In this document: positions 42,936-59,508 of the stretch, piece after piece
Numbering within the stretch: the stretch's first letter is position 1
Layout: every line of letters begins with the position of its first letter
Source: an uncultured Rhizobiaceae group bacterium
GTDB lineage: Bacteria > Pseudomonadota > Alphaproteobacteria > Rhizobiales > Rhizobiaceae
Length of the DNA stretch: 64,000 nucleotides
Direction: 5' to 3'
NCBI GenBank assembly: GCA_947501445.1
Contig: CANMVS010000007.1
Span: forward strand, 124,001-188,000
The notes under the pieces: model-generated
The model's database searches: none
What the model was told of the DNA's origin: nothing
The model's input: the letters and a program-made list of their open reading frames with translations, nothing else
Program-made: the position numbers and the translations under genes

Positions 42936-42959
42936 ATGAAAGTGAAAGGATCAGAAGTG

Positions 42960-44015
42960 ATGACCCGAAAATCAAACATTGAGACGGGGTTCGACCGTCG
43001 AACCGTTCTGAAAATTTCTGCGGGTGTGGCGGTGGCAGGGCTGGCCGGTGCGCTCAGCAGTTCAATTGCGCAGGCTGCAGATGGCATTGTGGCGCTGGTG
43101 CATACCCAGGCGGCAGGGGACAACGGCCCGGTCGATTCCATGATCGCCAAATTGAAGCAGCTTGCCAGCGAAAAGGGGCTGACATATCGGGCAATCTATG
43201 CGCAGGACCCGGCAACCTATGAGACAATTTTCCGAACGCTGGGTGAAGCCGGTGCTTCTGTCGTTGTTTCTACATTCAATGAAGTCGCTGTGCCGATCAA
43301 GGCTGTGGCACCCGACTTTCCCGACACCAAATGGATTCAGCTGTTTGGCGATGCATTTGAACCACCGATGCCAAATGTTGTAACCGTGTCCTATGATTAT
43401 TATCTGGGCTGCTATCTTTCCGGAATTTATGCCGCCGGGGTCAGCAAAACCGGTAAACTGGGCTTTATCGGCGGAATTTCCATTCCACCCATCAACGCCG
43501 ATTTCAATGCATTCAAAGCCGGCGCTCAATCGGTAAACCCTGATATTACAGCCACGGCTGCATTTGCGGGTTCATTTCAGGACCCGGCCAAGGGCCAGGA
43601 AATTGCGTCGCAAATGTTCAGCGACGGCATTGATTACATCCAGACGGATGCCGCAGCGACAGACGCCGGCATTATTGCCGCAGCCAATGAGATGGAGGGT
43701 CGTATGGTCAGCGCCCTTGATCCTGCACAGTTTGATCTTGGCCCCAAGTCCCTGATTGCAATTGTTGGCCTCGATTTTGGTGCGTCGCTTTATAATGAAG
43801 TGACAAAGGCGCTGGGTCCTGATTTTGCCGGTGGGCAGCACGTCTCGACAGGCCTTGGAACGGGCGTGATAGACTTCAAATTATCACCCGTGTTCACGGC
43901 AAAGGGCCCAGCCGACATCATTGCTAAGTCTGACAAAACATGGCCCGATGTTGAAAAGGCCAGAGCGGCCATTTTGGACGGTTCACTGAAAGTGCCGTTC
44001 AATACGGCCCTGTAA
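42960..44015 (+). CDS. BMP-family ABC substrate-binding lipoprotein-like receptor (nucleoside type), importer 1
   Basis: A 351-residue receptor of the BMP/PnrA family, with a twin-arginine-like signal (DRRTVLKISAGVAVAGLAG, cleavage near AQAAD). Characteristic elements are IVALVHTQAAGDNGPVDSM and LGFIGGISIPPINADFNAFKA. BMP-family receptors bind purine nucleosides and related compounds. The start at 42960 has AAAGGA upstream; ATG 42936 is an alternative. It is followed by its ATPase and two permeases. Confidence 0.9.
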   Translation: MTRKSNIETGFDRRTVLKISAGVAVAGLAGALSSSIAQAADGIVALVHTQAAGDNGPVDSMIAKLKQLASEKGLTYRAIYAQDPATYETIFRTLGEAGASVVVSTFNEVAVPIKAVAPDFPDTKWIQLFGDAFEPPMPNVVTVSYDYYLGCYLSGIYAAGVSKTGKLGFIGGISIPPINADFNAFKAGAQSVNPDITATAAFAGSFQDPAKGQEIASQMFSDGIDYIQTDAAATDAGIIAAANEMEGRMVSALDPAQFDLGPKSLIAIVGLDFGASLYNEVTKALGPDFAGGQHVSTGLGTGVIDFKLSPVFTAKGPADIIAKSDKTWPDVEKARAAILDGSLKVPFNTAL

Positions 44016-44035
44016 CCGGGATCGGATTTTCAGCA

Positions 44036-45595
44036 GTGGTTGATGGTGACACTATAGTTCTGCAGTGCCGTGACATCAGCGTTCACTATGGTGACGTTGT
44101 GGCACTGTCTGACTTGAGCGTCGCCTTTGATCGCGGGAAAATTCATGCGGTCGTCGGCCAAAACGGCGCGGGCAAAACAACGTTTGCCCGCGCAGTCGCT
44201 GGTCTGGTTTCGGCCCAAAATGGCCAGATATTGATCGATGGAAAAGCCATTCCGCCCGGTAATGTCAGCGGTGCCAGGCAGGCGGGTGTCGAGCTTGTGC
44301 ATCAAAGTTTTGCGTTGCCACCATCCTTTAGTGTGGCTGAAACAATGCAGTTCGGGGCGCAAAACAGGGCGGTTTATTCACGCAAGGGTCTTGAAAAGCG
44401 CTGGCAGAAACATCTGGATGCTCTGGATGTCAAGGTTTCGGCAGGCCAGCGTATCCGGGATCTGCCGGTGGAAACCCAGCAAAGTGTTGAGATCGCCCGG
44501 GCTCTGGTGACAAAGGCCAGGGTTCTTATTCTTGACGAGCCGACAGCCGTGCTTTCACCTGAAGGGACCGCAAAACTATTCGAACGCGTCCGGCGGCTGC
44601 AGGAGATCGGCGTTACCGTCATCCTGATATTGCACAAGATTCGCGAAGTTCTGGCGATCGCCGATACGGTGACCGTGCTGCGTGGCGGGCTTCTTGTGGA
44701 AGGTCCCATTGATACAAGTGGTATTGATGCCGCACGCCTTTCTGAACTGATCATCGGTCCTGATTTGCGGGTTGTCGATGAGGACGACAGGGCCGCATTG
44801 ACCGGGTCTGCTGCTGTCGCTCACACGACGGCCATGAAAGAGGCCGCCGATGGCCCGCCGGTTCTGGATGTTCGATCACTGTCGACCCGGGTTGATCCGG
44901 ATGGTCCTGCGCTGGATACCGTTGATCTGACGATTGCAGCTGGCGAAATCGTTGGTGTGGCCGGTGTGGAAGGCAATGGTCAACGCACGCTGGTGCGGGC
45001 GATTTCGGCCCTTGCCGACGTTTCTGCCGGCACAATTGAACTGGACGGTGTGACCATGACCGATGCCGCCATGAAGGCGAGGCGTCTGGCCGGGCTGCGT
45101 GTCATCCCGTTCGAGCGCAATGTTGAGGGACTTAGCCTGTCCAGTACACTATGGCAAAACTGGTCAATCCGAATGCTTTTGGAGCGCTCGATCCTGGCTT
45201 TCATTCAGCCCGCAGAATTGCGAAAACGCTGTAATGATGCGCTTGATATCTGGGATGTGCGTTATGACAATGTCAGCCAGTTAGCTGGCTCACTATCGGG
45301 TGGAAACGCCCAAAAGGTTATTCTTGCCCGTGAGATGGATGATCAGGCGAGGCTGATTATCGCCGCCCAGCCAACCAGAGGTCTCGACATCGGTGCCACA
45401 TCCTTTGTGTGGGATTCTCTGCGCAAGGCAAAACATCGTGGATGCGGTATTTTATTCATTTCATCAGACCTGGATGAAATCATGGATGTTTGTGACCGCG
45501 TCGTTGTGATGCTCTCGGGTCGCATTGTCGAGGCCTTTGAGCCACCCTACGATCTGAAGAAGATCGGTGCTGCGATGACCGGGCTGAGCAAATGA
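44036..45595 (+). CDS. Nucleoside-type ABC ATPase with two nucleotide-binding domains, importer 1
   Basis: A 519-residue, duplicated ATPase as in NupA/sugar CUT2 systems. The first half has Walker A GQNGAGKTTFARA and Walker B LILDEPTAVLSPEG. The second half has the degenerate Walker A GVEGNGQRTL and a full signature LSGGNAQKVILARE. It starts at GTG 44036, so the start is less certain. The stop overlaps the next start by 4 bases. Confidence 0.92.
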   Translation: MVDGDTIVLQCRDISVHYGDVVALSDLSVAFDRGKIHAVVGQNGAGKTTFARAVAGLVSAQNGQILIDGKAIPPGNVSGARQAGVELVHQSFALPPSFSVAETMQFGAQNRAVYSRKGLEKRWQKHLDALDVKVSAGQRIRDLPVETQQSVEIARALVTKARVLILDEPTAVLSPEGTAKLFERVRRLQEIGVTVILILHKIREVLAIADTVTVLRGGLLVEGPIDTSGIDAARLSELIIGPDLRVVDEDDRAALTGSAAVAHTTAMKEAADGPPVLDVRSLSTRVDPDGPALDTVDLTIAAGEIVGVAGVEGNGQRTLVRAISALADVSAGTIELDGVTMTDAAMKARRLAGLRVIPFERNVEGLSLSSTLWQNWSIRMLLERSILAFIQPAELRKRCNDALDIWDVRYDNVSQLAGSLSGGNAQKVILAREMDDQARLIIAAQPTRGLDIGATSFVWDSLRKAKHRGCGILFISSDLDEIMDVCDRVVVMLSGRIVEAFEPPYDLKKIGAAMTGLSK

Positions 45596-46626
45596 GTGAC
45601 CGTATTGTATCAATCATACGCGCCTTGATTTTTATTGTGCTGGCGCTGGCGTTGTGCGGCGTGATATTTTCGATCGCCGGTTATTCAGCCACCGGGATGT
45701 TTCAGGCGATCATCGACGGGGCTTTTTTTCGCAATAATGCGCTGACCCACGCCCTGCGCTGGGGAATGCCCCTGTTCATTACAGCCGTTGGGGTGGCGAT
45801 CTCGTTCCGGGCGGGATATTTCAATATTGGCGCTCAGGGTCAGTTCTACATGGGCGCAATCTGCGCCGCTTTCGCTGCGGACTGGCTCAATGGTCTCCCG
45901 GCAGCAATTGTCATACCAGTGTGCTTTCTGGCCGGTACAACCGGTGGTGCCCTCTGGTCATTATGGCCGGGGCTCTTGCGGTTGAAATCCGGTGCAGATG
46001 AAGTCATCACAACGCTGATGGGTAATTTCCTGGCCGGGCTGCTGCTCGTCTATGTGACGTCGGGGCCGCTAAAGGATCCATCGGGATCAGGCCAGCAGGC
46101 ATCAAGCACACCTCTTGATGCGGCTTACCGAATTAGTACGTCCGCAGGATTGTCACCCGTTATTATCGCCATTGCGGCCCTGGTTGGCATATCGATGTGG
46201 TTGCTGGTCAATCGCACGGCCTATGGTGTTTTATCCGGTCTGGCGGGGCGCAATGCCACCATGGTGAACTGGCAGGGCGCAAAACTGGTGAATATCGGTC
46301 TTGCGAGCTTCATCATCAGTGGCGCGTTGGCCGGACTTGCCGGTACGGTTGAACTATTGGGCCCCAATGGCCGATTGGCTTCCGGCTTCCTGCCTGCACA
46401 CGGGTTCACCGCGATCCTGATTGCGCTGGTTGCCAATCTGTCGATCACGGGCATAGCCATTGTCGCCTTTTTCTTTGGCGGACTGGCCTCAGCTGCTCTT
46501 TATCTGCCGGTGATCGCCGGGCTGCCTGCCACAGCTATTGAGATAATCAACGCATCGATTGCCCTGTTCATTACGGCAAAATCGGGTGTCATCGATCGCC
46601 TCGTTCGATGGCGGAAAGGACGCTGA
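45592..46626 (+). CDS. Nucleoside-type ABC permease, importer 1 (BPD2 family)
   Basis: A 344-residue polytopic membrane protein with the family core FRAGYFNIGAQGQFYMGAIC. It is coupled to the ATPase gene by an ATGA overlap and to the second permease by TGATG. It is channel subunit 1. Confidence 0.92.
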   Translation: MSDRIVSIIRALIFIVLALALCGVIFSIAGYSATGMFQAIIDGAFFRNNALTHALRWGMPLFITAVGVAISFRAGYFNIGAQGQFYMGAICAAFAADWLNGLPAAIVIPVCFLAGTTGGALWSLWPGLLRLKSGADEVITTLMGNFLAGLLLVYVTSGPLKDPSGSGQQASSTPLDAAYRISTSAGLSPVIIAIAALVGISMWLLVNRTAYGVLSGLAGRNATMVNWQGAKLVNIGLASFIISGALAGLAGTVELLGPNGRLASGFLPAHGFTAILIALVANLSITGIAIVAFFFGGLASAALYLPVIAGLPATAIEIINASIALFITAKSGVIDRLVRWRKGR

Positions 46627-47519
46627 TGCACGACATCATAATCGCCATCCTTCGATCCGGCACCCCGCTCATCTATGTGACACTTGCGGCGGTTATCGCG
46701 CAGCGGGCCGGTATCTGGCATCTGGGCCTTGAAGGGCTGATGATCGTTGGTGCCTGTGCCACCATTTTGACGATTGTGGCCACCGGATCGGTTTTCATCG
46801 CTCTTTGTGTTGCCATTGTGCTGTGCGTTCTCATGTCCATTTTGTTCTGGTTTGTGGTTGAGAAACTCAAAGCCAATCAGATTATAGCCGGGCTGGGGCT
46901 GACCGGTCTTGGGCTCGGTGGCACCGCATTTGCGGTTGAAGCCATATTTGGCACCCAGGCTGCTGTCAGTGCTGAATTTGGCCTGCCCCGGATTGGTCCG
47001 ATGTTTGGTTCCTATGGTGTCCTATCGATCCTCGTTGTTCTGATGCCTGTGTGTGTGATTTTCATGTGGGTACTGCTGCGCCGGACCCGTTTTGGTCTGC
47101 GGCTTGCTGCCAGCGGTGAGCACCCGTTCGCCGCGCGAAGCGTCGGGGTGCGTACCGATCTGATGCGGCTGGCGGCATTGATGATTGGCGGGGTGTTATG
47201 TGCGATTGGCGGTGCTGAACTGGCCGCAGGAAGCCTGCAGATATTTTCGCAAAACATGACAGCCGGTCGTGGTTTCATGGCATTTACCGCAGCCATTTTT
47301 GGCGCCGGACAACCAATTGGCGCAACCCTGGCAGCTGTGTTTTTCGCCGTTGTTGGTGCTGCCGGTATCAGAGCGCAACTGGTCTTTGGTGACCGGGTGC
47401 CGCATGATCTTCTGTTGGGGTTACCCTATATCGCGACCATTTTCGGTATCTGGTTGAGTGCAAAATTGCGTGGTGGGACAAAGGCTGTCACCGGATTTGG
47501 CGAACTGCGCGATTCCTGA
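46626..47519 (+). CDS. Nucleoside-type ABC permease, importer 1, second subunit
   Basis: A 297-residue membrane protein with the core QRAGIWHLGLEGLMIVGACA, typical of the second permease of BMP-type importers. It starts at ATG 46626, which overlaps the previous stop and has GGAAAGGA upstream; an ATG six codons earlier lacks such a site. Confidence 0.92.
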   Translation: MHDIIIAILRSGTPLIYVTLAAVIAQRAGIWHLGLEGLMIVGACATILTIVATGSVFIALCVAIVLCVLMSILFWFVVEKLKANQIIAGLGLTGLGLGGTAFAVEAIFGTQAAVSAEFGLPRIGPMFGSYGVLSILVVLMPVCVIFMWVLLRRTRFGLRLAASGEHPFAARSVGVRTDLMRLAALMIGGVLCAIGGAELAAGSLQIFSQNMTAGRGFMAFTAAIFGAGQPIGATLAAVFFAVVGAAGIRAQLVFGDRVPHDLLLGLPYIATIFGIWLSAKLRGGTKAVTGFGELRDS

Positions 47520-47561
47520 CGTCGTTGGAAGAGATAGACCCGGTGCACCGAGGAGCTCGAC

Positions 47562-48503
47562 ATGACACAAAAAACCATTGTTCTGACGGATCCGGGGCAG
47601 GACCAGGCCGCAGCACTATTCATGATGCTGGGTGCGCCGCAAGCCTTTGACCTATTGGGTATCGTAGCGACGGCCGGCAATATTGATCTGACGCATACCA
47701 CCCAAAATTGCCTCAAACTGCTGGAACTTGCCAATCGCACGGATATTGCCGTGATGGCAGGATGTCCGCGTCCCATGGCTGGCGATCTGGTCACCGCCGA
47801 GCATGTACACGGCCCCACAGGGCTGGATGGGCCGCAATTGCCTGCGCCCACGACGACCATATCTGAAGAACATGGTGTGGAATTCATCATTCGAACATTG
47901 CGCGCAGCATCAGACGGCGAGATCACCATATGCTCGCTTTCCCCAATGACCAATCTGGCCATGGCGTTGGTTCAGGCACCCGATATCGCCTCCAGGATCA
48001 GGCAGGTTGTCGCAATGGCAGGGGCCTACTTCGAGGTCGGTAACATCACGCCAACGGCTGAGTTCAACGTATATGTTGATCCAATGGCGGCTGATATTGT
48101 TCTTAATGCCGGTGTGAAAACGACACTGCTGCCTCTGGATGTCACGCACCGCATGTTGTCGACACCAGCGCGGCTGGCCGCAATGGGTGCGATTGGCAAC
48201 CGGTGTGGAACGGCAACGGCTGAGATGCTTACCTTTTCCCAAACATTCGATCTGAACAAATACGGCTGGGAAGGTGCACCGCTGCATGGCCCCTGCGTGC
48301 CTGCCTATATGTTGCGTCCGGATATTTTTACCGGCCGGCAGATTAACGTATCAGTTGAGACAGGCCAAAATCTTGCGACCGGCATGACAGTTGCCGATTG
48401 GTGGGGCATTACCGATCGGCACAAGAATGTATTTTATGTGCGCGATGGAGATCCCGATGCCTATTACGATCTGCTGATCGAATGCCTGGGTAACCTGCCC
48501 TGA
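47562..48503 (+). CDS. IUNH-family nucleoside hydrolase, unusual calcium-site residues
   Basis: A 313-residue ribonucleoside hydrolase homologue. The usual opening DTDPGxDDA appears as LTDPGQDQA: D10 and D14 are kept, but position 15 is Gln and the first Asp is Leu. AGN (N40) and AEFNVYVDP (N169) are present. The C-terminal HDP is HGP (H242, G243). In characterised enzymes D10, D15 and D242 bind calcium, so two of these ligands are missing. It follows importer 1 by 42 bases and probably acts on the imported nucleoside. It could have an altered metal need, another substrate, or be a sensor or inactive form. Confidence 0.88.
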   Translation: MTQKTIVLTDPGQDQAAALFMMLGAPQAFDLLGIVATAGNIDLTHTTQNCLKLLELANRTDIAVMAGCPRPMAGDLVTAEHVHGPTGLDGPQLPAPTTTISEEHGVEFIIRTLRAASDGEITICSLSPMTNLAMALVQAPDIASRIRQVVAMAGAYFEVGNITPTAEFNVYVDPMAADIVLNAGVKTTLLPLDVTHRMLSTPARLAAMGAIGNRCGTATAEMLTFSQTFDLNKYGWEGAPLHGPCVPAYMLRPDIFTGRQINVSVETGQNLATGMTVADWWGITDRHKNVFYVRDGDPDAYYDLLIECLGNLP

Positions 48504-48583
48504 TGGCCTGTGCGTTGCTATCAATTGCTCTATAGGTTTGAACCTGGCAAAGACTGATTTTCAGCTTCATGGAGTGAAATTGA

Positions 48584-49234
48584 ATGGAACAGCAATTCTG
48601 GCAGCAAAGATGGCGGGAAAATAGCATCGGTTTTCACGAAAGTGAGGCCAATCCACATTTGACGCACAACATAACATCCCTGAATCTGAAAAGTGGCGCA
48701 GGCGTTTTCGTACCGTTATGTGGAAAAACTGTTGATCTGGATTGGCTGCTGACCAGGGGGTTTCGGGTTGTTGGTGCGGAGCTGAACCAGGGTGCGGTTG
48801 AAGCGATTTTCGAGCGCCTTGAGTTGGAGCCGGACGTGCAAAGAAATGGTGAAAACATCCGTTTCAGTGCACCGGATATTGAGATATTTGTCGGCGATTT
48901 TTTTAACCTCTCCGCCGCGCAGCTTGGCCCTGTTGATGGTATCTATGACCGCGCTGCACTGATTGCGCTGCCGCAAACCATGCGTGAAGCCTATGCGGCT
49001 CATTTGATGCAGCTATGCCCAAAGGCCCCACAGCTGTTGATCTGTCTCGATTATGATCAAAGCCAGACCAAGGGGCCGCCATTCAGTGTTCCCGAGGCTG
49101 AAGTCAAGAGGCTCTATTCGCAAGGCTACGACATGCACCATCTTGGCAGCTCCGCCATATCGGGGCCACTTGCAAAGCGCTGTCAGGGTACAGAAGAGGT
49201 CTGGTTGCTGACGCCAGAGCAATTCATGTTTTGA
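48584..49234 (+). CDS. tpm: Thiopurine S-methyltransferase family protein
   Basis: A 216-residue SAM-dependent methyltransferase with the bacterial TPMT opening FWQQRWRENSIGFHESEANP and the motif I region GAGVFVPLCGKTVDLDWL. The catalytic-loop region GDFFNLSAAQLGPVDGIYDR follows. Bacterial TPMTs methylate thiopurines, selenium or tellurium species. The placement in a purine region may reflect detoxification of thiolated bases, or chance. It is convergent with the guanine deaminase gene, with a full-length interspersed repeat between. Confidence 0.9.
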   Translation: MEQQFWQQRWRENSIGFHESEANPHLTHNITSLNLKSGAGVFVPLCGKTVDLDWLLTRGFRVVGAELNQGAVEAIFERLELEPDVQRNGENIRFSAPDIEIFVGDFFNLSAAQLGPVDGIYDRAALIALPQTMREAYAAHLMQLCPKAPQLLICLDYDQSQTKGPPFSVPEAEVKRLYSQGYDMHHLGSSAISGPLAKRCQGTEEVWLLTPEQFMF

Positions 49235-49370: not shown

Positions 49371-50729
49371 CTATGTGCGCCGTTTGCCGTTCACCCAGAC
49401 ATCGCTGATGCAGGACCTGTCAGCGGTGAGCACAAGTTTCTCAAATACGTCGGTGAGGGTGTCCACATCCGGATCCTGTCGAAAGCCGCTGCCGGTGGTG
49501 TTTGAGCGCACACAGATGGCATCGAAGGCATAACCCGGTTTGAAAAGGCCGATTGGAAGTGAAAGCGCCCGTCCTCCGGCTGTGGTGGCAAGCCAAAATG
49601 TTTCAGCCGTGGTGAGAGGCGTCTCGCCGGAGCCGCGCGCCGATTGCAGGCGATCCGGCGCGGTGCCACAGCAGGCGTGGCGTGATGCCATCAGTGCATA
49701 GCGTGCGGTATCGAATATCGATGGACTGAAACCACCGGCAATATCGGTTCCAAGGCCCACATCGACCCCATGCGACAGCGCCTTTCGCAGCGGGAATACG
49801 GCATTGGCAAAATAGGCGTTGGACAAGGGGCAGTGGGCAACGGCCGCACCACGCTGTGCCATCAAAGCCATGTCCTGTTCGCTAATGAAGTTTGAGTGGG
49901 CCAGAATTGTCCTGTTGGTCAGCAGGCCGAAATCATCAAAGGCCTCGGTGTCCGATTTTCCGAGCCGGCTGCGAACATGGGAAACTTCCCAATCGCTTTC
50001 AGAGCAATGGGATTGAACATGACACCCGGTCTGTGCCGCAAGTGCGCCAAGCCCATGCAGCAGTTCGTCAGTGCAACTGGGAATAAACCGTGGTGTTATG
50101 GCAGGCAGAACCAGCGGGTTACTGCCTTGTCGCATGGTCGATATTTTTTCAACGAAACGACGGCTTTCCTCAAGGGCAGTTTCAGTGCTTGCGTCACGAT
50201 AATAGTCCGGGCATTGCCCTTTGTGATCCATCGCGACTTTACCGACAAGTGCCCTTTGCCCGTGCCTGAGGCAGGCTTCGGCCAGGATGACATTGGCTTG
50301 AAAATCAACCGAACCGAAATAGACTGCGGTGGTGGTGCCATGTGCCAGAAGGGTGCGAACCAGATCGTCGTATATGGTGCGGGCATAGTCATGGTCGGCA
50401 AACTTTGCCTCGAGTGGAAATGTGTATTTTTGCAGCCAATCTTCCAGGGGGGCATCGAGTGCCTTGCCAAGTTGCGGCCACTGTGGTGCGTGGATATGCA
50501 GATCGACAAGCCCTGGAATGAGGACGTCATTTTTATCGAGCCGGTGCAATATTTTACGCTGCTCAGCGCCTTCGATCAACGCATCATGGTCACTATGCGT
50601 GGGATGCAGAACCTGCTCGATAGTGCCTGTTTCATCCACCGCGATCGCACAATTTTCGAGTATTTCGATACGGCCCTGTTCCGGTGCGTGAACTCCGCTG
50701 GCTTTAACGACTAGGGATGGAAAATGCAT
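49371..50729 (-). CDS. guaD: Guanine deaminase (amidohydrolase family)
   Basis: A 452-residue zinc amidohydrolase. PGLVDLHIHAPQWPQLG is the guanine-deaminase form of the metal motif (HxH followed by APQ). VQSHCSESDWEV holds further ligands, and GLGTDIAGG the catalytic-site Asp. It converts guanine to xanthine and ammonia; a methylated guanine could also be a substrate. I start at ATG 50729, 7 bases after the GST-like stop, as an upstream GTG would overlap it. It is the fourth gene of the NdmC-NdmD-NdmE-like operon, which directly ties the demethylase to guanine. Confidence 0.92.
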   Translation of the reverse strand: MHFPSLVVKASGVHAPEQGRIEILENCAIAVDETGTIEQVLHPTHSDHDALIEGAEQRKILHRLDKNDVLIPGLVDLHIHAPQWPQLGKALDAPLEDWLQKYTFPLEAKFADHDYARTIYDDLVRTLLAHGTTTAVYFGSVDFQANVILAEACLRHGQRALVGKVAMDHKGQCPDYYRDASTETALEESRRFVEKISTMRQGSNPLVLPAITPRFIPSCTDELLHGLGALAAQTGCHVQSHCSESDWEVSHVRSRLGKSDTEAFDDFGLLTNRTILAHSNFISEQDMALMAQRGAAVAHCPLSNAYFANAVFPLRKALSHGVDVGLGTDIAGGFSPSIFDTARYALMASRHACCGTAPDRLQSARGSGETPLTTAETFWLATTAGGRALSLPIGLFKPGYAFDAICVRSNTTGSGFRQDPDVDTLTDVFEKLVLTADRSCISDVWVNGKRRT

Positions 50730-50736
50730 CTGGATA

Positions 50737-51378
50737 TCAAACTGCAGGGCCGGCGGGAAAAACACCGGGCATGACGCAAAATCCCGGAATGCGTTTTACC
50801 CTGTCCAGCCAGCGGCGGATAGCCGGATAGTCTTCGCGTGACACGCCACCCTCTTCCGAAAGGGCCACATAGGGAAAACAGGCAATATCTGCAATTGTAG
50901 GTTCGTCAGCGCTGCAGATCCAATCTGCCCCTGCATCTTCACGAAACCACAAATGCGCGTCCAGTATGCGAAACAGCTTGTGGGCGCCTGCTCGGGCGGC
51001 ATCGCCATCAAGTTCGAAGAACATCGCGCTTTCAAGACGTGCGGCAGATGCTGTTGTGGTCAACTGATCGGCGAACGCCAGCCATTGACTGATTTCACCT
51101 ATGAGGTCTGGATTATCAGTCGGGTACCAATTTCCCCCATGGTCATATTTGTGGGCCAGATAGACGAGAATTGCCTGCGCGTCGCGCAACCGATAATCAC
51201 CATCTTCGATAACCGGGAGCTGGCCAAGCGGATTGATCCGCAAAAAGGCATCCGTGCGGTGCTGGCGGCCCGGGTAATAATCAATATTGGTCTTTTCATA
51301 CTCAAGCCCCAGAAAGGCCAGCAGAAGGCGAACCTTGTAGCAGTTTCCGGACAGGTCGAAATCGAATAATCTGATCAT
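50737..51378 (-). CDS. Glutathione S-transferase-like protein (NdmE-like position)
   Basis: A 213-residue GST with a thioredoxin-fold N-terminal domain (MIRLFDFDLSGNCYKVRLLL, NPLGQLPVIEDG) and an all-helical C-terminal half. A classical glutathione-transfer role is possible. However, its position directly after an oxygenase lacking a Rieske domain and a Rieske-reductase fusion matches NdmE, the GST-like structural partner of the 7-methylxanthine demethylase NdmCDE. It begins 3 bases after the NdmD-like stop. The assignment as a complex subunit is inference from order and family. Confidence 0.88.
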   Translation of the reverse strand: MIRLFDFDLSGNCYKVRLLLAFLGLEYEKTNIDYYPGRQHRTDAFLRINPLGQLPVIEDGDYRLRDAQAILVYLAHKYDHGGNWYPTDNPDLIGEISQWLAFADQLTTTASAARLESAMFFELDGDAARAGAHKLFRILDAHLWFREDAGADWICSADEPTIADIACFPYVALSEEGGVSREDYPAIRRWLDRVKRIPGFCVMPGVFPAGPAV

Positions 51379-51381
51379 ATC

Positions 51382-53082
51382 CTATACATCCAGAACCAGA
51401 CGTTTTGATTTTGCCCGCGAAATGCAGGTCAAAATCCTGTCACCGCGGTCTTTCTCCGAACGGCTGAGGTAGACGTCCTGATGATCGGGCTCGCCTTCAA
51501 GAACCGTTGCCAGGCATGTGCCACAGGCACCCTGCTGACAGGAGGCTGGCATATCAACCCCGTTTTCGCGCAGAACCGATAATATGGTTTGACCGGCGGG
51601 TACCTGAAGCGTCATGGCAGAACGCGCAAGAGCGATTTCAAAACTGCTGCTGTCATCTATTTCCCGCGTATTTTTGAAGTATTCGAAATGTATGGCCTTT
51701 TCGTCCCATCCCTGCTTTTCGGCTATGCTGCGGGCGGCATCCAACATGGGACCCGGACCGCAGATATAGACCTGTCGATCGGCGGATGGTGAGGCGAGAA
51801 TGCCTGCGATCTCGGCGCTGGTTTGTTGTGGTGACAGGTTCAGATGGCTCGTCAGCCGACTACCCAGCAAATCAAGCCGCTCAGGAAACGCGCGTTGGGC
51901 CCTGTTTTGTGTGAAGTAGTGAAACGCGAAATCCAGGTTCTGATTGTTAAGCGCCGCCGACATCGACAATAGCGGGGTTATGCCAATGCCACCGGCGATA
52001 AACAGGGTGCTTTCGGCATCGCGGCGCAATGGAAAGTTGTTGCGTGGCTCGGAAATCGCCAGCAGGTCGCCTTCGCGCACGGTGTCATGAATTACTTCCG
52101 AGCCGCCCTGTGACGGATTTTCCCGTTTGACGCCAATGATATAACGATCCGTTTCAAGTGGACTGTTGATCAGGGAGTATTGACGCGTCAGACCATTCGG
52201 CAGGGAAATGTCGATATGGGCACCGGGTTGAAAACTTGGCAGTGTTCCGCTCACCGGGGTCAGCTCCAGGCTGCAAACACCTTCGCCAGCGCTTGTTTTG
52301 CGCGCCACATGCACACGGATCATGCCGGTCTGAACCGAACGCTCCGGCATGGCAGCAAGTTCTGCGCTGACCGGAACATAGGCCGGAATGAGCGGCTCTG
52401 GTGCTGGTCTGCGCGCGGCCTCATTCTCAATGCGTGTGCGTAGTTCGCTCAAAACAGTATTGAGGTGCAAAAGAACCTGGCCGCGATCGTAGTCAGCCTC
52501 CTGGTGATTGAACAGGCCACGAACGATGGTTCGATTGCTATCAGCCGGTTGCAGAAACAGCTTAAGCGTTGCCGTTCCATTTGAATAGCTGAGATCATCC
52601 GAAGCTGCCAGGCCAAGACCGGGATCCCAGTGATCTGACAAAAATTCCCACACCAGTTTGCCGGGTGCCCCTATTGGTATCGGCCGAAGGGTCAGATCAT
52701 CATATTGACCAACCGGTTGCGGCTCCGCAGGTGTGTTTTCACTAAAATGCGTCCAGACCAACCCGTAACGCTCCAGCACCGGAAAGGTGCGGTTGCGAAC
52801 AGTTCTGGCCGGTGCATCGGCAGGGTGAGCCGGAATATAGGTGCAGCCAGCGCTGCGGTTTGCATATCGCCATCCATGATACTGGCATACGAGTTCAGCG
52901 CCTGTGTTTGTGCCGATGGAAAGGCGGACACCGCGATGCAGGCAGCGATTTTCCCAGATGTTGACATGCCCGTCATCAGCACGCCAGATCGCCAGCTCGC
53001 GGCCTTCGAGCCGTCCCTGGAATACATGACGGTGCGGAAGGTCCGAGGTGTTTGCAACCGGAAACCAGATCCCGGAACTCAT
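51382..53082 (-). CDS. Rieske domain fused to FMN/NADH/[2Fe-2S] reductase (NdmD-like)
   Basis: A 566-residue fusion. Residues 1-115 are a Rieske domain with all four ligands (CLHRG at 47-51: C47, H49; CQYHGW at 66-71: C66, H69). About 120-240 resembles part of an oxygenase but lacks the mononuclear-iron motif. About 250-470 is a phthalate-dioxygenase-reductase-like part with RQYSL (300-304), GGIGITP (364-370) and CGPGPM (441-446). The C-terminus is a plant-type ferredoxin with C515, C520, C523 and C553. Known NdmD has this same order and supplies electrons, and for NdmC the Rieske centre too. The gene overlaps the oxygenase gene upstream by 4 bases. The presumed electron donor is NADH. Confidence 0.9.
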   Translation of the reverse strand: MSSGIWFPVANTSDLPHRHVFQGRLEGRELAIWRADDGHVNIWENRCLHRGVRLSIGTNTGAELVCQYHGWRYANRSAGCTYIPAHPADAPARTVRNRTFPVLERYGLVWTHFSENTPAEPQPVGQYDDLTLRPIPIGAPGKLVWEFLSDHWDPGLGLAASDDLSYSNGTATLKLFLQPADSNRTIVRGLFNHQEADYDRGQVLLHLNTVLSELRTRIENEAARRPAPEPLIPAYVPVSAELAAMPERSVQTGMIRVHVARKTSAGEGVCSLELTPVSGTLPSFQPGAHIDISLPNGLTRQYSLINSPLETDRYIIGVKRENPSQGGSEVIHDTVREGDLLAISEPRNNFPLRRDAESTLFIAGGIGITPLLSMSAALNNQNLDFAFHYFTQNRAQRAFPERLDLLGSRLTSHLNLSPQQTSAEIAGILASPSADRQVYICGPGPMLDAARSIAEKQGWDEKAIHFEYFKNTREIDDSSSFEIALARSAMTLQVPAGQTILSVLRENGVDMPASCQQGACGTCLATVLEGEPDHQDVYLSRSEKDRGDRILTCISRAKSKRLVLDV

Positions 53083-53984
53083 GGTGTGTTGACCTGCTCT
53101 GAAGCTGGAATAACGCCATAGGTGACACCATGCTGGCTTAACCAGCGGCGGTATACAATGGATGTCTTGTCCGCTCGAATGGGCGTTTCTGCCCGCGGCT
53201 CCAGGGGCAACCGCTTGGGAAACTGATTTTCAAGGATTGGCTTGTCCTGTCCAAATATATGGAGTTGGAAATTGCGGATGAAGTCATCTGTGTTGACGTC
53301 ATCCAATATGCTCAACATCATGTGGCCGCGAAGCGTTTCATGCCCGGTGGGCTGGCAGAAAATGGCAATGACATCGAGGCGTTTTTCATCAAGAGGGCTC
53401 GATTTGTAAAGGACTGAACAAGTCGGGTGGGGAACCCGATAGGTGTATTCGACATCCGCGCCCGACGTGGATACGGTCGAAGCCATCGGTTGATAGAACA
53501 GACATTCAGTTGCCAGAATTTCCCTGCCGTCCTGCGAAACGGCAACATTGTATTCCTTGACTTCCGTGTGCGGCTCCTGGCCCAGGATGCCGGTGTGGAC
53601 AAAGGGAAAATGGCCCATATCAAGAAAGTTTTCTACGGCGCGTTGAGCCGAAACCTGAACGCCGATTGTTCCGGCGGCAACGTTTCTGCGGTCCGCTTCG
53701 CCATATTCCGGAATGGGGAAGATGTCCCCGTCAGGAGTGCCGATTGTCGCCCAGATATATCCATAACGCGCGATCACAGGCAAAGCCGTCGAAGGGTCAG
53801 AGCCGGGCTGTTGCGACCCGGTGCACCGCCAGGCCGTCAGCGTTCCGGCCGTGTCTTTGGCATAGGCAATGGGTTCGCCGAACAACCGCGTCCTGTGGAC
53901 CCTGCCGACGGCGGTCTCCTCTACAGAGGCCAGCGGGTACCACTGATTTGCCATGAAAGTGTCCGGCGCTTGATCAATGGTCAT
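53079..53984 (-). CDS. Rieske-type oxygenase catalytic subunit lacking the Rieske cluster (NdmC-like N-demethylase)
   Basis: A 301-residue protein. The N-terminal segments flanking a Rieske domain are present (WYPLASVEET, PIAYAKDTAGTLTAW, then ALPVIARYGYIWA). About 40 residues between them are gone, including both CxH and CxxH motifs; only Cys54 remains. The mononuclear-iron site is intact: NFLDMGHFPFVH with N119, D122, H125 and H130, plus D247 in GQDKPILENQ as third ligand. NdmC, which N7-demethylates 7-methylxanthine, has the same truncation and borrows the Rieske centre of NdmD. With NdmD- and NdmE-like genes directly downstream, an N-demethylase of a methylated purine is the best call. 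The actual substrate is unproven. Confidence 0.88.
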   Translation of the reverse strand: MTIDQAPDTFMANQWYPLASVEETAVGRVHRTRLFGEPIAYAKDTAGTLTAWRCTGSQQPGSDPSTALPVIARYGYIWATIGTPDGDIFPIPEYGEADRRNVAAGTIGVQVSAQRAVENFLDMGHFPFVHTGILGQEPHTEVKEYNVAVSQDGREILATECLFYQPMASTVSTSGADVEYTYRVPHPTCSVLYKSSPLDEKRLDVIAIFCQPTGHETLRGHMMLSILDDVNTDDFIRNFQLHIFGQDKPILENQFPKRLPLEPRAETPIRADKTSIVYRRWLSQHGVTYGVIPASEQVNTP

Positions 53985-54028
53985 GACGTTGTTGTTCCGG
54001 TTGGGTTCGATGGGTGCATTATAGATTG

Positions 54029-54054
54029 CATAGCAAAATAATTCAAATGCTATG
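54029..54054. promoter_or_regulatory. Inverted repeat in the divergent promoter of the demethylase operon
   Basis: CATAGCA (54029-54035) and TGCTATG (54048-54054) are perfect arms with a 12-base spacer; outward symmetry continues with ATTG/CAAT apart from one inserted base. It lies between the NdmC-like gene and the FCD-type GntR gene, a good position for control of both. Confidence 0.6.
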
Positions 54055-54130: not shown

Positions 54131-54829
54131 ATGTCCGACCTGCCCAGATGGATCGCGGATGCAGTGACTGGCGCTATTTTGGCGCAAGCATTGCCGCCGG
54201 GTACAAAACTGGGAGAACGGGAACTGGCGCAGGCCTGCGGCACAAGTCGTGCGGTGGTCAAGCAGGCAATGCTCATATTGGGTGAAACCGGTCTTGTTGA
54301 AACACGCAAGAACCGTGGTGCCAGCGTTGCCAGGCTAACCACCCAGGAGGCCTATGATCTGTTCGAGGCGTTGACGGTTTTGGAACAGGGCGTTGCAGTC
54401 CAGCTCATGCAGCGCATGGCGCCCGCAGAGTGGGACGTGCTGCAGGAACACGTTGATCTGGTTCAAACCCACATGGATGAAAACAACAATGATGCCGCGG
54501 ATCGTCAGGGGCCGCAGTTCCATACCCATTTTATCTCGTTGCTGGGCAGTAAAGCCGTTTCAGCACTGCACCAGCAACTCGTCCGCAGGTCGACACTGCT
54601 GCGGATGCTTTATGTCAATCGGCGGTACCACAGGTGCCGATTGAATGATGACCATCAGGTGCTGATTGATCTGTTGAGGGCAAAGGAAGCTGATGCGGTA
54701 TTCAGACACATTGAAGATCATTACCGCTCAATTGTGCGTGGCTTTGACATGGACAGGCCATTGAGCACGGATTGTGACCTTGCTGCGGCACTGGCGCCAT
54801 GGCTGGGATCGAAGCTTGTCAGCAATTGA
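54131..54829 (+). CDS. GntR-family regulator (FCD type)
   Basis: A 232-residue protein with a GntR winged helix (LPPGTKLGERELAQACGTSR through TRKNRGASVARL) and an FCD effector domain of alpha helices. The metal-ligand-like residues FHTHF and HIEDHY are present. It is divergent from the demethylase operon and 27 bases upstream of the second BMP importer. It probably controls both in response to a purine. The ribosome site is weak. Confidence 0.88.
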   Translation: MSDLPRWIADAVTGAILAQALPPGTKLGERELAQACGTSRAVVKQAMLILGETGLVETRKNRGASVARLTTQEAYDLFEALTVLEQGVAVQLMQRMAPAEWDVLQEHVDLVQTHMDENNNDAADRQGPQFHTHFISLLGSKAVSALHQQLVRRSTLLRMLYVNRRYHRCRLNDDHQVLIDLLRAKEADAVFRHIEDHYRSIVRGFDMDRPLSTDCDLAAALAPWLGSKLVSN

Positions 54830-54856: not shown

Positions 54857-55939
54857 ATGAAACAATCACGCAGAACATTTATGCAGGGCTCCGCAGCTGC
54901 GGTCGCGGCGCTTGGCTTTCCGAATATCGTGCGAGCCGCTGATGTCATCAAAATTGGCCAGGTAAATGCATCTCCTGCCGCCGAAATCGGCTGGTCAAAA
55001 CAGCATGCTCTGGGCATTGATGCGATCAAGGCCAAATATGGCGACCGGGTTGAAGTGACTGTTGTTGACAGTATTTTTGTTCCCCAGGACGCCGAACGTG
55101 TTTTCCGTGAGCTGGCAGCCAAAGGCCACAAGCTGATATTTGGCACCAGTTTTTCGCTTGGTACTCCCATGCAGAAGGTTGCGCCACGCTTTCCCGATGT
55201 GGCATTCGAGCATTGTTCGGGGATTGTACACCTCAAAAATCTGGGCACTTTCGAGGCCAAATACTACGAAGGCATGTATGTCGCAGGTGTTGCTGCCGGA
55301 CATATGTCGAAAACCGGCAGGCTTGGATTTGTCGGTGGTTTCCCAATTCCGGATATTGTCGGCCCTGCCAATGCATTTTTATTGGGTGCGCAATCTGTTC
55401 GCTCGGATGCCACCTGTGACGTAGTGTTTTTGAATTCCTGGTTCGACCCGGCCAAGGAAAAGGAGGCAGCGCTTGCCCTTCTTGCGCAGGGTGCGGACGT
55501 TCTTGTGGGCATGACGGACACGGGTGTATGTGTTCAGACTGCACAGGAAAAGGGTGTATTATCGGTCGGCTATGCCAGCGATCTGCGGACATTTGGACCT
55601 GACAGCCAACTCACATCTGTCGTTCTGGATTGGTCGAGTGACTACCTGGATGCAGCCAGCGGTGTGGTCGACGGTGATTGGACCAGCACGGTGCGTTGGA
55701 GCGGGTTTAAAAAGGGCGTTGTCAAAATGGCGCCGTACAATGACGTGATCCCGGCGGATGTTCGCGACAAATTGACGAAGCTTGAAGCCGATATCGCCTC
55801 CGGTGCGACGCATCCCTATGCTGGAGAAATCAAGGATGCTGATGGCAATATACGGGTTGCCGCTGGTTCTGTTCTGCCGGATGCGGATATCCGGTCATTC
55901 AATTGGCTGGTCGCCGGCATGAACGGTAGCCTTGGTTGA
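54857..55939 (+). CDS. BMP-family ABC substrate-binding protein, importer 2
   Basis: A 360-residue receptor with a twin-arginine-like signal (QSRRTFMQGSAAAVAALGF, cleavage near VRAAD). Typical BMP blocks are IKIGQVNASPAAEIGW and RLGFVGGFPIPDIVGPANAF. It likely binds a nucleoside or nucleobase. GGGGAG precedes the ATG. Its adjacency to the demethylase operon makes a methylated purine nucleoside the preferred ligand by context. Confidence 0.9.
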   Translation: MKQSRRTFMQGSAAAVAALGFPNIVRAADVIKIGQVNASPAAEIGWSKQHALGIDAIKAKYGDRVEVTVVDSIFVPQDAERVFRELAAKGHKLIFGTSFSLGTPMQKVAPRFPDVAFEHCSGIVHLKNLGTFEAKYYEGMYVAGVAAGHMSKTGRLGFVGGFPIPDIVGPANAFLLGAQSVRSDATCDVVFLNSWFDPAKEKEAALALLAQGADVLVGMTDTGVCVQTAQEKGVLSVGYASDLRTFGPDSQLTSVVLDWSSDYLDAASGVVDGDWTSTVRWSGFKKGVVKMAPYNDVIPADVRDKLTKLEADIASGATHPYAGEIKDADGNIRVAAGSVLPDADIRSFNWLVAGMNGSLG

Positions 55940-55985: not shown

Positions 55986-57536
55986 ATGCAGGCCATGACC
56001 AGAAGGCTCGAGCTCACCAATATCACCAAACGATATCCGGGTGTGATTGCAAATGATGCAATCACACTTGGTGTCTCAGCGGGTGAGATCCATGCCATTC
56101 TCGGTGAGAATGGCGCCGGAAAATCCACGTTGATGAAAATCATCTATGGTGCTGTTGCAGCAGATGACGGTGAAATACGCTTTGAAGGTAAACCTTTGGG
56201 CGTGCACAGTCCCGGTCATTCCAGACATCTGGGCATTGAGATGGTCTATCAGCACTTTTCCCTGTTCGAGACCGTTTCGGTTGCTCAAAACATTGCTCTT
56301 TGTCAGGACGGTCGTCTGGAATTGACGGCGCTGGGTGACCGTATCAGGCAAACGGCTGAACGTTACGGTCTTGTGGTCGATCCGGATAAAATCGTCTTTG
56401 ATCTGTCGGTTGGAGAGCGCCAGCAGGTGGAAATCCTGCGATGTCTCTTGCAAAAACCCAAATTGCTGATCCTTGACGAGCCGACATCAGTGCTGGCTCC
56501 GCAGGCAATTGATCAACTCTTTGAGGTGTTGCGGGCGCTCGCCAAAGACGGATGCAGCATTTTATACATCAGTCACAAGCTCGATGAGGTGCGGGCGTTG
56601 TGTGACAGTGCGACGGTGCTGCGAAACGGCAAAGTCACAGGCGATGTTGATCCACGCCAGGCGACAAGCCATGAACTGGCGGTCATGATGGTTGGTTCTG
56701 ATCTGCCGATGACCAAAATGCCGAAAACCACAGTGAGCGCTGAGCCGGTCCTGAGGGTAAAAAACCTTTCTGCCGAACCTTTTGGCGAAAAAGGGCGCAA
56801 ATTGTCAGATATCACCCTTGATGTTCATGCGGGTGAAGTGGTCGGCATTGCCGGGGTGTCCGGAAATGGCCAATCGGAGCTTGCCGTCTGCCTGAGCGGG
56901 GAAGCGCTCGATCCCAATTCTCTTATTCAGCTCGACGGTGCCGATATCGGCCATTTGCCGCCAGATCGTCGCCGTAAAATGGGGCTAGCCTATGTGCCTG
57001 AAGAGCGGCTTGGGCGTGGTGCGGTACCAACACATTCGCTGATGCAGAACGCCATTCTTACCGGCTATGTTCGTGGTCTGGCGCATATGGGCCTGGTGAA
57101 AAAGGCCAGGGCAAGGGCATTTGCCAACGCCACCATTGACCGCTACTCGGTTAAAACCAACGGCGCCGGCGCACAGGCCAACAGTCTGTCGGGTGGCAAT
57201 CTGCAAAAATACATTCTTGGCCGGGAACTGTCGCTTGAACCACGTCTGTTGATTGCCGCCCAGCCGACCTGGGGGGTGGATGTCGGGGCCGCCTCCTTTG
57301 TCAGGCAAAAGATTGTTGATCTCAGCCGAAACGGTGCCGCTGTGCTGATCATTTCTGAAGAGCTGGATGAGCTTCTGGAGATTTGTGATCGCATTCATGT
57401 GCTTTCAAACGGAAGATTGAGCGCGGCGATACCGCGCGGTGAGGCGACGCGGGAAAAGCTTGGTCTAAACATAGGTGGCGCCACACTTCATCTGCCTGGA
57501 TCCGGTGAGGAGCCGAGCGATGCAGCTGCGCATTGA
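55986..57536 (+). CDS. Nucleoside-type ABC ATPase with two nucleotide-binding domains, importer 2
   Basis: A 516-residue double ATPase. The first half has Walker A GENGAGKSTLMK and Walker B LILDEPTSVLAP. The second half has the degenerate GVSGNGQSEL and the signature LSGGNLQKYILGREL. ATG 55986 or 55995 may be the start. It overlaps the next permease gene by 17 bases. Confidence 0.92.
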   Translation: MQAMTRRLELTNITKRYPGVIANDAITLGVSAGEIHAILGENGAGKSTLMKIIYGAVAADDGEIRFEGKPLGVHSPGHSRHLGIEMVYQHFSLFETVSVAQNIALCQDGRLELTALGDRIRQTAERYGLVVDPDKIVFDLSVGERQQVEILRCLLQKPKLLILDEPTSVLAPQAIDQLFEVLRALAKDGCSILYISHKLDEVRALCDSATVLRNGKVTGDVDPRQATSHELAVMMVGSDLPMTKMPKTTVSAEPVLRVKNLSAEPFGEKGRKLSDITLDVHAGEVVGIAGVSGNGQSELAVCLSGEALDPNSLIQLDGADIGHLPPDRRRKMGLAYVPEERLGRGAVPTHSLMQNAILTGYVRGLAHMGLVKKARARAFANATIDRYSVKTNGAGAQANSLSGGNLQKYILGRELSLEPRLLIAAQPTWGVDVGAASFVRQKIVDLSRNGAAVLIISEELDELLEICDRIHVLSNGRLSAAIPRGEATREKLGLNIGGATLHLPGSGEEPSDAAAH

Positions 57537-58587
57537 GCCACGAGTTACAACGTCGATTGTGATTCAGGGACTGGCCCCAATCATCGCCGTAACCATGACG
57601 CTGGTGCTCGGCGGGATTCTTTTTGCGGCCATGGGATATCCGCCGCTGGAGACATTGTGGGCTTTTTTTATTGAACCGATTTCGACCATCTATGGAGCGA
57701 GTGAACTGCTGGTTAAGGCGGTTCCGCTGGTTATTATCGCTACCGGCCTTGCGATCGGGTTCAGAGCAAACATCTGGAACATTGGCGCGGAAGGTCAATT
57801 GACCATAGGCGCCATCGCTGCCACCGGTATAGGGCTCTATTTTCCCGACCAGCAGGCCGTGTATCTCTTGGCCCTGATGTTTCTGGCCGGTTGTCTTGGC
57901 GGATTGTTCTGGGCCGGGATAGCGGCTTACCTGCGTGCGCGATTTCATACCAGCGAAATCCTCGTAACACTGATGCTGACCTATATTGCCGCGCTGATTT
58001 TGTCGTGGCTGGTGCGCGGGCCCTGGCGTGATCCGGCGGGTTTCAATTTTCCGCAGACCGCTCTGCTTCCCCCGGCAGGATTGATTGACCCGATCGACTT
58101 TGCCTACCGGGTAACCGGGTCTGTTTATTTCGCAATCTTTGCTTTGATCGCGATGTGGTTTTTTGTGGCACGCAGTTTTCAGGGTTACAAATTGGCAGTT
58201 GGTGGTGCCGCGCCACGTGCTGCGCGCTACGCGGGTTTCAGCGAAAAAAGCGCCATATGGATTGGGCTGTTAACCGGCGGGGCAGCAGCGGGCATTGCCG
58301 GGTTTTTTGAAGTTGCCGGGCCGCTTGGACAGCTCTCGCCAATTATCTCGCCAGGCTATGGGTTCGCTGCAATCATCGTTGCATTTATCGGTCGCCTCCA
58401 TCCGGTTGGAATTTTACTGGGTGGACTGTTTCTGGCGCTTATCTATCTGGGCGGTGAAAGTGTTCAGCTTGGATATGGAATTCCAGCCCCCATTACCCGT
58501 GTCTTCCAGGGGCTTTTGCTGTTCTTTCTGCTGGCCAGTGAATTCGCAGTCTCCCATCGCATCGTTCGTGTGAAGGAGGCCCATTGA
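57520..58587 (+). CDS. Nucleoside-type ABC permease, importer 2, first subunit
   Basis: A 355-residue membrane protein with the core FRANIWNIGAEGQLTIGAIA. It starts at ATG 57520 with GAGGAG upstream, inside the end of the ATPase gene. It is the partner of the next permease. Confidence 0.92.
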   Translation: MQLRIEPRVTTSIVIQGLAPIIAVTMTLVLGGILFAAMGYPPLETLWAFFIEPISTIYGASELLVKAVPLVIIATGLAIGFRANIWNIGAEGQLTIGAIAATGIGLYFPDQQAVYLLALMFLAGCLGGLFWAGIAAYLRARFHTSEILVTLMLTYIAALILSWLVRGPWRDPAGFNFPQTALLPPAGLIDPIDFAYRVTGSVYFAIFALIAMWFFVARSFQGYKLAVGGAAPRAARYAGFSEKSAIWIGLLTGGAAAGIAGFFEVAGPLGQLSPIISPGYGFAAIIVAFIGRLHPVGILLGGLFLALIYLGGESVQLGYGIPAPITRVFQGLLLFFLLASEFAVSHRIVRVKEAH

Positions 58588-59508
58588 GTGGATCTGTTCA
58601 TTGCCATATTCACCGGGACAATGATTGCAGCGACACCCTTGCTGTTTGCAGCGCTGGGTGAGTTGATTGTCGAAAAATCGGGTGTCTTGAACCTTGGTAT
58701 TGAAGGCATGATGCTGATTGGTGCAGCCATCGCCTTTTGGCTGTCGTTCAATGGGTATTCACTGGGTATTGCTTTTATCGGCGGCGCGCTGGCCGGAATG
58801 ATAACAGCCGGTATTTTTGCCGTCGTGGCCCTTAGTCTGCTTGCAAATCAATATGCGGCAGGTCTTGCCCTTGCGATTTTCGGCTCCGGTGTTTCAGCCA
58901 TGATTGGCACCGGATTTGGCAGCACACCCGTTGAAACATTGCGCCCAATTGACATTCCGGTTCTGTCGGACATCTGGCTATTGGGCCCGCTTCTGTTTAA
59001 ATTCGATGTGCTGGTCTATCTGGCCATTGCGCTGGTGCCAGCAACCGCCTGGTGGCTGAACCATACGAAATCCGGCCTTGTATTGCGCACCGTTGGTGAA
59101 TCACCGCAAACAGCCCATGCCATTGGATATAACGCCATTCGCATTCGCTATGCAGCGGTTCTTTACGGAGGGGCGATGGCCGGACTGGCGGGTGCCTATA
59201 TGTCAGTTGCCTATACCGCAATCTGGGTAGAGGGCATGACAGCCGGGCGAGGGTGGATCGCACTGTCGCTGGTTGTCTTTGCCTCATGGCGACCATATAG
59301 GGTTCTGGCTGGCGCCATCCTTTTTGGCGGCATGACCATCCTTCAGTTACACGGGCAAATTCTCGGTCTGCCACTTCCATCGGAAGTTCTGTCGGCTGCG
59401 CCCTATATCGCCGCGATTGTAGTGCTGGTGATGATATCGCAGAACCGTTCCCGCATGCGACTGGATGTGCCCGCGTCGCTGGCAAAACCATTCAGAGCTG
59501 ATGGTTAG
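58588..59508 (+). CDS. Nucleoside-type ABC permease, importer 2, second subunit
   Basis: A 306-residue membrane protein with the core EKSGVLNLGIEGMMLIGAAI. It starts at GTG 58588 directly after the previous stop. It completes importer 2. Confidence 0.92.
   Translation: MDLFIAIFTGTMIAATPLLFAALGELIVEKSGVLNLGIEGMMLIGAAIAFWLSFNGYSLGIAFIGGALAGMITAGIFAVVALSLLANQYAAGLALAIFGSGVSAMIGTGFGSTPVETLRPIDIPVLSDIWLLGPLLFKFDVLVYLAIALVPATAWWLNHTKSGLVLRTVGESPQTAHAIGYNAIRIRYAAVLYGGAMAGLAGAYMSVAYTAIWVEGMTAGRGWIALSLVVFASWRPYRVLAGAILFGGMTILQLHGQILGLPLPSEVLSAAPYIAAIVVLVMISQNRSRMRLDVPASLAKPFRADG

Follow-up and report, generated by a model that had tools for sequence, protein, structure and literature searches.

The window analysed here, a stretch of 64,000 nucleotides from an uncultured Rhizobiaceae group bacterium (assembly GCA_947501445.1, contig CANMVS010000007.1, positions 124,001 to 188,000), raises the question of what a Rieske-type oxygenase that lacks a Rieske cluster does in an operon with a guanine deaminase. 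Four minus-strand genes run head to tail there from position 53984 to 49371 and encode the oxygenase (301 amino acids, 53079-53984), a Rieske-reductase fusion (566 amino acids, 51382-53082), a GST-like protein (213 amino acids, 50737-51378) and a guanine deaminase (49371-50729). In the translated frames the first two genes overlap by 4 bases and the fusion and GST genes are 3 bases apart, and the deaminase gene probably starts at the ATG at 50729, 7 bases past the GST stop. The first three genes are a real and well conserved set that is homologous to a known three-protein demethylase, NdmCDE (the 7-methylxanthine N7-demethylase of Pseudomonas putida CBB5), which likewise combines a Rieske-less oxygenase, a Rieske-reductase fusion and a GST-like protein. 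From these genes we infer, with reasonable though far from complete confidence, an enzyme that would demethylate an N-methylpurine, most likely an N-methylguanine, and feed the guanine deaminase.

The NdmC-like oxygenase was characterized by its translation, Pfam, phmmer, Foldseek and alignments. Pfam matched VanA_C, with KshA_C under its cut-off, and detected no Rieske domain in it. The translation retains N119, D122, H125, H130 and D247, as the original prediction had stated; by analogy with known Rieske oxygenases, we take H125, H130 and D247 to be the 2-His-1-Asp iron site and D122 to be the bridging residue. The prediction had also claimed that about 40 residues with the Rieske motifs are lost and, in fact, the stretch in which CxH...CxxH would be expected (window residues 38-73) is 36 residues long in the alignment versus 79 in an NdmB orthologue, 43 fewer. 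Among related oxygenases (122 rows minus two motif-bearing Rieske oxygenases, n = 120) the Rieske motif was found in none, while N119, D122, H130 and D247 were kept in all 120 and H125 in 119. Given these counts, and with the motif present in 64/64 full-length fusions, the loss of the cluster is neither chance nor the result of one damaged gene. A plain vanillate-type demethylase, as the name VanA_C would have it, was set aside because relatives and context are purine-linked. Longer-frame oxygenases, 33-42% identical in the catalytic part to the Rieske-less oxygenase of P. fulva, are common in genome G744 and other genomes of its family, and these may stand close to the form from which the split one arose.

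The NdmD-like second protein (translation, Pfam and model) carries a Rieske [2Fe-2S] domain of its own at the N-terminus (residues 1-121, 52720-53082), and the predicted ligands C47, H49, C66 and H69 were confirmed by Pfam, the model and the motif count. Pfam places Rieske at residues 6-88 and Fer2 at 487-558; the flavin/NADH reductase and plant-type ferredoxin part (residues ~250-566, 51382-52335) was assigned by Pfam and similarity, and the C-terminal part resembles phthalate dioxygenase reductase (PDR). About 100 weakly conserved residues separate the Rieske from the flavin domain, and this middle stretch (residues 122-223, 52414-52719) is likely what is left, in reduced form, of a Rieske-oxygenase catalytic domain, with the iron ligands missing. 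In hhalign comparisons, the N-terminal half of the fusion and the oxygenase could be aligned over 158 columns (probability 97.4, E 9e-12), and residues 116-246 taken alone matched the final part of the oxygenase's catalytic domain (probability 86.8, E 4e-6). The AlphaFold model of the fusion (mean pLDDT 86.5, pTM 0.63) has two long strands and a helix in the middle stretch, and Foldseek matched the fusion to the SxtT/GxtA oxygenases over 267-324 columns with template modelling (TM) scores of 0.53-0.58 by target length, the root-mean-square deviation being near 12 in many matches and 5.0-5.8 over 267-289 columns in the tighter ones. A loose two-histidine motif is missing from the middle stretch in 63/64 fusions. 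By the profile alignment, the model with its Foldseek matches and the absent histidine motif, the fusion resembles a Rieske oxygenase whose iron site has disappeared and of which an iron-less catalytic remnant seems to persist. The two proteins would then have undergone a family-wide reciprocal decay, the oxygenase having lost the cluster and the fusion the iron site, and such a decay would be a natural experiment in which Rieske cluster and catalytic iron are placed on separate proteins.

Splitting and fusion seem to be separable, because unfused forms occur in Rhizobium and Paracoccus (in what follows, L numbers denote loci and G numbers genomes). Stand-alone Rieske proteins of 213-228 amino acids with the motif are encoded in L160, L162, L165 and L166, and one of 217-218 amino acids is annotated in R. 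leguminosarum (L036). On a plasmid of Paracoccus alcaliphilus (L038, 9307-12462) four neighbouring genes separately encode the Rieske protein, the Rieske-less oxygenase, the GST and the PDR-type reductase, and this set adjoins a BMP importer, an acylphosphatase and, further on, an annotated 8-oxoguanine deaminase. L166/L167 (G229:C3) is a large purine-type region with a stand-alone Rieske protein, a GST, a BMP importer, two Rieske-less oxygenases, PucD/PucE-like parts of xanthine dehydrogenase (under their cut-offs), an aldehyde dehydrogenase, a GMC oxidoreductase, a TPP enzyme in two genes, an adenine deaminase-like gene and an amidohydrolase; L162/L163 (G1017:C61) resembles it by gene clustering.

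How close is the set to NdmCDE itself? Comparison with strain CBB5 was limited to NdmA, NdmB and an 87-residue NdmD fragment in the PDB, and locus L158 (genome G901) served as proxy for NdmC, NdmD and NdmE. Its 357-amino-acid oxygenase is an NdmB orthologue (679 bits to PDB 6icl), beside which lie genes for GntR, a Rieske-less oxygenase, a fusion, a GST, FrmA, FghA and NCS2, named by their similarity to genes of L034/L035. The window proteins are identical to those of the proxy at 43% (oxygenase), 39% (fusion) and 60% (GST). The NdmE-like third protein, predicted to be GST-like and found to have GST_N and GST_C domains, is thus better conserved than the other two, in keeping with a structural role. 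The NdmCDE architecture that had been proposed stands as regards gene order, domains and homology to the proxy, but the NdmC clade does not include the oxygenase: in a tree of 122 rows, obtained by a quick search with support from the Shimodaira-Hasegawa-like approximate likelihood ratio test (SH-aLRT) only and with the root unknown, it groups with L039/L042 (Pseudooceanicola, Xinfangfangia; support 100) and the proxy NdmC falls in a separate 4-row clade (98). Its active-site helix by the iron ligand also differs (GQDKPILEN in the window versus GQDLMILIN), so that 7-methylxanthine is not specially favoured as substrate. The ferredoxin part of the window fusion scores 79 bits with NdmD and about as much (79, 77 and 74) with other reductases, whereas that of a Klebsiella homologue is clearly nearer NdmD (119 versus 65 bits).

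The surroundings differ as well, the window having a guanine deaminase and a BMP-type ABC importer where the proxy has the NdmB orthologue, FrmA/FghA and an NCS2 permease. In agreement with the claim that caffeine genes are absent beside the set, no NdmA/NdmB-like or second Rieske oxygenase gene was found at 42.0-62.6 kb of the window, and a role of the operon in caffeine breakdown was set aside for this reason. The host genome (6.8 Mb) has one copy of the oxygenase (9/9 candidates scored), and the alignment-based search gave one further match of 27 bits elsewhere in it (6/15 candidates scored). Homologues of ndmCDE of unknown function have been reported in 18 additional organisms, predominantly Sinorhizobium and Mesorhizobium, and are listed also for Klebsiella and Janthinobacterium (Summers 2013, as cited in the available part of PMC4408171). 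They belong very probably to the same wider family as the window set, whose novelty is lowered by the rhizobial ones being already in print; a guanine deaminase, importer or formaldehyde-gene context is not described for them in that part of PMC4408171. The structure of the NdmCDE complex was still called unsolved in a 2026 paper (PMC13237722).

The substrate is suggested by the fourth gene. The guanine deaminase said to be coupled to the set is indeed a true member of its family within the operon, with 417 bits to TIGR02967 versus a cut-off of 375.4, and it scores far below the cut-off of the 8-oxoguanine deaminase model (112 versus 532). The host genome encodes three guanine deaminases over the cut-off (564, 490 and 417 bits), the last being the window copy, which is only 29-30% identical to the other two and 48-63% identical to oxygenase-adjacent ones in other taxa. 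The starred set of the deaminase tree that holds it comprises 12 rows, with L026 excluded for its wrong frame. In the alignment with human GDA (2uz9), the stretches HIHAxQ, TPRF and GTDxAGG, which lie around the guanine site of the human enzyme, are common to both proteins. The window deaminase belongs to a separate, often oxygenase-linked group. Among 297 Rhizobiaceae genomes (deaminase group at E <= 1e-50, oxygenase at E <= 1e-40) the group was found in 33, and in 20 of these it lies within 4 kb of the oxygenase when coordinates are compared by hand. The oxygenase is present in 26/33 genomes with the deaminase group versus 47/264 without it (Fisher p 3e-12, a test that counts related genomes, which are not independent). 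N-methylguanine is proposed as substrate because this deaminase sits in the operon, and 7-methylguanine or another N-methylguanine, the methyl position being presumptive, fits it better than 7-methylxanthine does.

The reaction is suggested by the neighbours of related sets. In the best 80 of 494 confirmed loci, taken from named genomes, neighbour genes were defined by our own gene calling and family clustering, which missed the oxygenase in 2/80 and recovered oxygenase (78), fusion (65), GST (63) and BMP protein (45) families. One-carbon families include FrmA, the glutathione-dependent formaldehyde dehydrogenase also called S-(hydroxymethyl)glutathione dehydrogenase (12 loci), and FghA (6). 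FrmA stands directly behind the GST gene in 10 of its 12 loci, with one gene between in another and beyond the importer in L112; all members checked passed their cut-offs (9/12 for FrmA, against TIGR02818, and 3/6 for FghA), and both are over cut-off in the unfused cluster L160. The linkage of FrmA/FghA in sister loci points to formaldehyde release, making a demethylase function likely from gene content. The predicted N-methylpurine demethylation thus keeps its chemistry as a likely one, with 7-methylxanthine, one of the substrates then proposed, losing any special claim.

Purine-related families in the same 80 loci are guanine deaminase (15), adenosine deaminase (7), NCS2 (4) and nucleoside hydrolase (2). 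Five of the nine deaminase-family members checked pass TIGR02967 (L039, L041, L042, L068 and L090), the one of L066 is just below it and passes another guanine deaminase model, those of L062 and L111 pass the 8-oxoguanine deaminase model, and that of L107 passes none shown; in L163 an 8-oxoguanine deaminase over cut-off lies beside a relative. Mesorhizobium AR02 (L032, from the plasmid collection) has the full window block of importer, GntR, oxygenase, fusion, GST and guanine deaminase (over cut-off), and the block minus the deaminase is present in Sinorhizobium meliloti LMB1 (L037); the oxygenase on pSymA of S. meliloti 1021 is 61% identical to that of the window. In L078 the oxygenase and importer are accompanied by a nucleoside hydrolase and by a gene that resembles ribokinase (285 bits, under the cut-off of 300), with fusion and GST not called; the nucleoside hydrolase family accompanies the oxygenase also in L101, and L104 has a xanthine permease over cut-off.

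According to this, NADH would reduce the flavin/ferredoxin half of the fusion, and the electrons would reach the Rieske cluster at the fusion's N-terminus. From there they would cross the interface to the oxygenase subunit via the conserved bridging D122 and arrive at its mononuclear iron, a path proposed because of the description of NdmD in PMC4408171 and the retained D122. The oxygenase iron would hydroxylate the N-methyl group of the purine base, the methyl would leave as formaldehyde, and the GST-like protein would hold the three-protein complex together. Nucleosides or bases would enter through the BMP-type importer. The product guanine would be converted to xanthine by the deaminase of the operon, and xanthine would be further handled by the xanthine dehydrogenase of the genome (subunit match of 1365 bits, elsewhere in the genome). 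Alternatively, the deaminase might act first and convert methylguanine to methylxanthine, but demethylation first is favoured because the guanine-site stretches of the human guanine deaminase are kept.

Several observations weigh against N-methylguanine demethylation. FrmA and deaminase families occur together in 0/80 loci; the formaldehyde evidence is drawn from sister loci, many of which carry two oxygenases, and not from the deaminase-linked loci nearest the window (L032, L039, L041 and L042), and the host genome has FrmA (608 bits, over cut-off) on another contig and not near the set. The sample of 80 is itself biased to close relatives and some of its loci end at contig ends. Parsimony gave 11 changes for the deaminase and 15 for FrmA, but these figures include both oxygenases of a locus and carry no weight here. 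The importer and deaminase neighbours are absent in Devosia relatives. Furthermore, 13 of the 33 deaminases are not near the oxygenase, six with an oxygenase elsewhere in the genome and seven without a strong match, and some of these are as similar to the window deaminase as linked ones (63% in G151, at a contig start, and 57% in G290); of seven such regions inspected, five had no oxygenase adjoining and two had almost no genes called. There is therefore a strong link between the deaminase group and the oxygenase, but the group also occurs outside this system. Finally, by phmmer and Foldseek (TM scores, normalised by query length, of up to 0.83) the nearest solved structures of the oxygenase are the SxtT/GxtA (SxtDIOX) hydroxylases and not NdmA/B. 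SxtT and GxtA are single-chain Rieske oxygenases that keep their cluster and hydroxylate the toxin scaffold, whereas the window oxygenase has no cluster on its own chain.

That the closest solved structures are hydroxylases, that FrmA is missing from the deaminase-linked loci and that the relatives in L062, L111 and L163 sit with an 8-oxoguanine deaminase would all suit a purine-ring hydroxylase, which would oxygenate a purine bearing no methyl group (converting guanine to 8-oxoguanine, for example, or acting on hypoxanthine/xanthine) and bypass or supplement xanthine dehydrogenase. There is a precedent in HpxDE of Klebsiella, which oxidise hypoxanthine and whose genes resemble those of Rieske-type dioxygenases (PMC7373994); HpxD and HpxE, likened here by description only, are likewise Rieske-type purine oxidation genes. 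We retain ring hydroxylation as a rival because of the pairing with 8-oxoguanine deaminase in some relatives, and yet consider it unlikely: formaldehyde genes lie behind the set in sister loci, the window deaminase is of the guanine type, the genome already has xanthine dehydrogenase, and the characterised three-subunit relative demethylates (PMC4408171). A plain 7-methylxanthine N7-demethylase for plant methylxanthines would follow from the three-gene architecture and homology shared with NdmCDE, but it is quite unlikely given the distinct clade of the oxygenase in the quick tree, the clade-specific change beside the iron ligand and the lack of NdmA/NdmB-like genes near by; moreover, a guanine deaminase has no place in methylxanthine breakdown. 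As for a non-purine substrate, such as a guanidine-bearing or heteroaromatic alkaloid, the purine genes would be near by regional clustering only. The action of SxtT/GxtA on saxitoxins, the Devosia relatives and a weak similarity of the BMP importer to the model of a putative importer of B6, well below its cut-off, are in line with this, but purine deaminases, purine permease, nucleoside hydrolase and xanthine dehydrogenase-like genes recur across loci of Rhizobiales, Rhodobacterales, Gammaproteobacteria and Actinobacteria, and we regard it as very improbable.

N-methylguanine demethylation thus remains our preferred reading. More tentatively, it is possible that the locus represents a widespread and hitherto unassigned pathway for methylated guanine nucleosides (for example 7-methylguanosine, which would come from RNA), comprising an importer, a nucleosidase, a demethylase made of two reciprocally decayed Rieske oxygenases and a recurrently tied guanine deaminase group, and existing also in unfused forms. 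To our knowledge, the fate of methylated purines in soil has been little studied. If true, our proposal would give a concrete gene set for the bacterial use of methylated purines such as RNA-derived ones, and would indicate what the rhizobial ndmCDE homologues, whose function is given as unknown in PMC4408171, are likely to do. A Rieske demethylase for 7-methylguanine, or the pairing of a Rieske enzyme with 8-oxoguanine deaminase, was not found described in the open-licence literature, nor, judging by the listed titles and opening lines of abstracts, was the pathway setting of the window in that literature, where absence proves little; the nearest accounts are the riboswitch paper PMC7373994 and caffeine reviews.

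Upstream of the oxygenase, a minus-strand promoter-like site (TTGAAT-17-TATAAT, 54018-54046) matches the consensus only, one being found versus 0.4 expected in shuffled sequence, and Rfam at gathering scores across 22 kb gave no riboswitch ahead of the operon. A divergent GntR/FCD regulator (54131-54829, plus strand; domain profiles) recurs as a neighbour in related loci. The adjoining importer, in line with the predicted nucleoside importers, is BMP-type (purine nucleoside-type) and is encoded on the plus strand by a BMP/PnrA-type substrate-binding protein gene (54857-55939, domain profiles), an ATPase gene (55986-57536, profile match) and two permease genes assigned by family clustering (57475-58587, whose true start may lie downstream, and 58588-59508). 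On the other side of the operon, positions 42864-49234 hold a second BMP-type importer (binding protein, ATPase and two permeases, 42864-47519) followed by an inosine/uridine-type nucleoside hydrolase (47562-48503, plus strand; profiles), which is a possible supplier of free bases, and then by a gene of the thiopurine S-methyltransferase family (TIGR03840, over cut-off) convergent with the deaminase gene.

The oxygenase and deaminase of the window are closest to those of the Rhodobacterales locus L039 (74% and 63%), and its fusion is 59% identical to that of L039 and up to 61% to others; to judge from these identities, the window set is possibly mosaic or exchanged. In an actinobacterial locus (L114, 16682-17908), a GcvT-like folate-binding protein is encoded between importer and deaminase, a second one-carbon link. 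In many loci a tandem pair of Rieske-less oxygenases precedes a single fusion, and in L045, L047, L050, L065, L092 and others the tandem oxygenases share one Rieske-reductase and one GST, with FrmA behind. A third oxygenase copy occurs in L047, L050, L065 and L070, near genes for a serine hydroxymethyltransferase and a glyoxylate reductase-like protein, which are annotated in L047 and assigned by clustering in the other three loci. The tandem oxygenases may remove different methyl groups.

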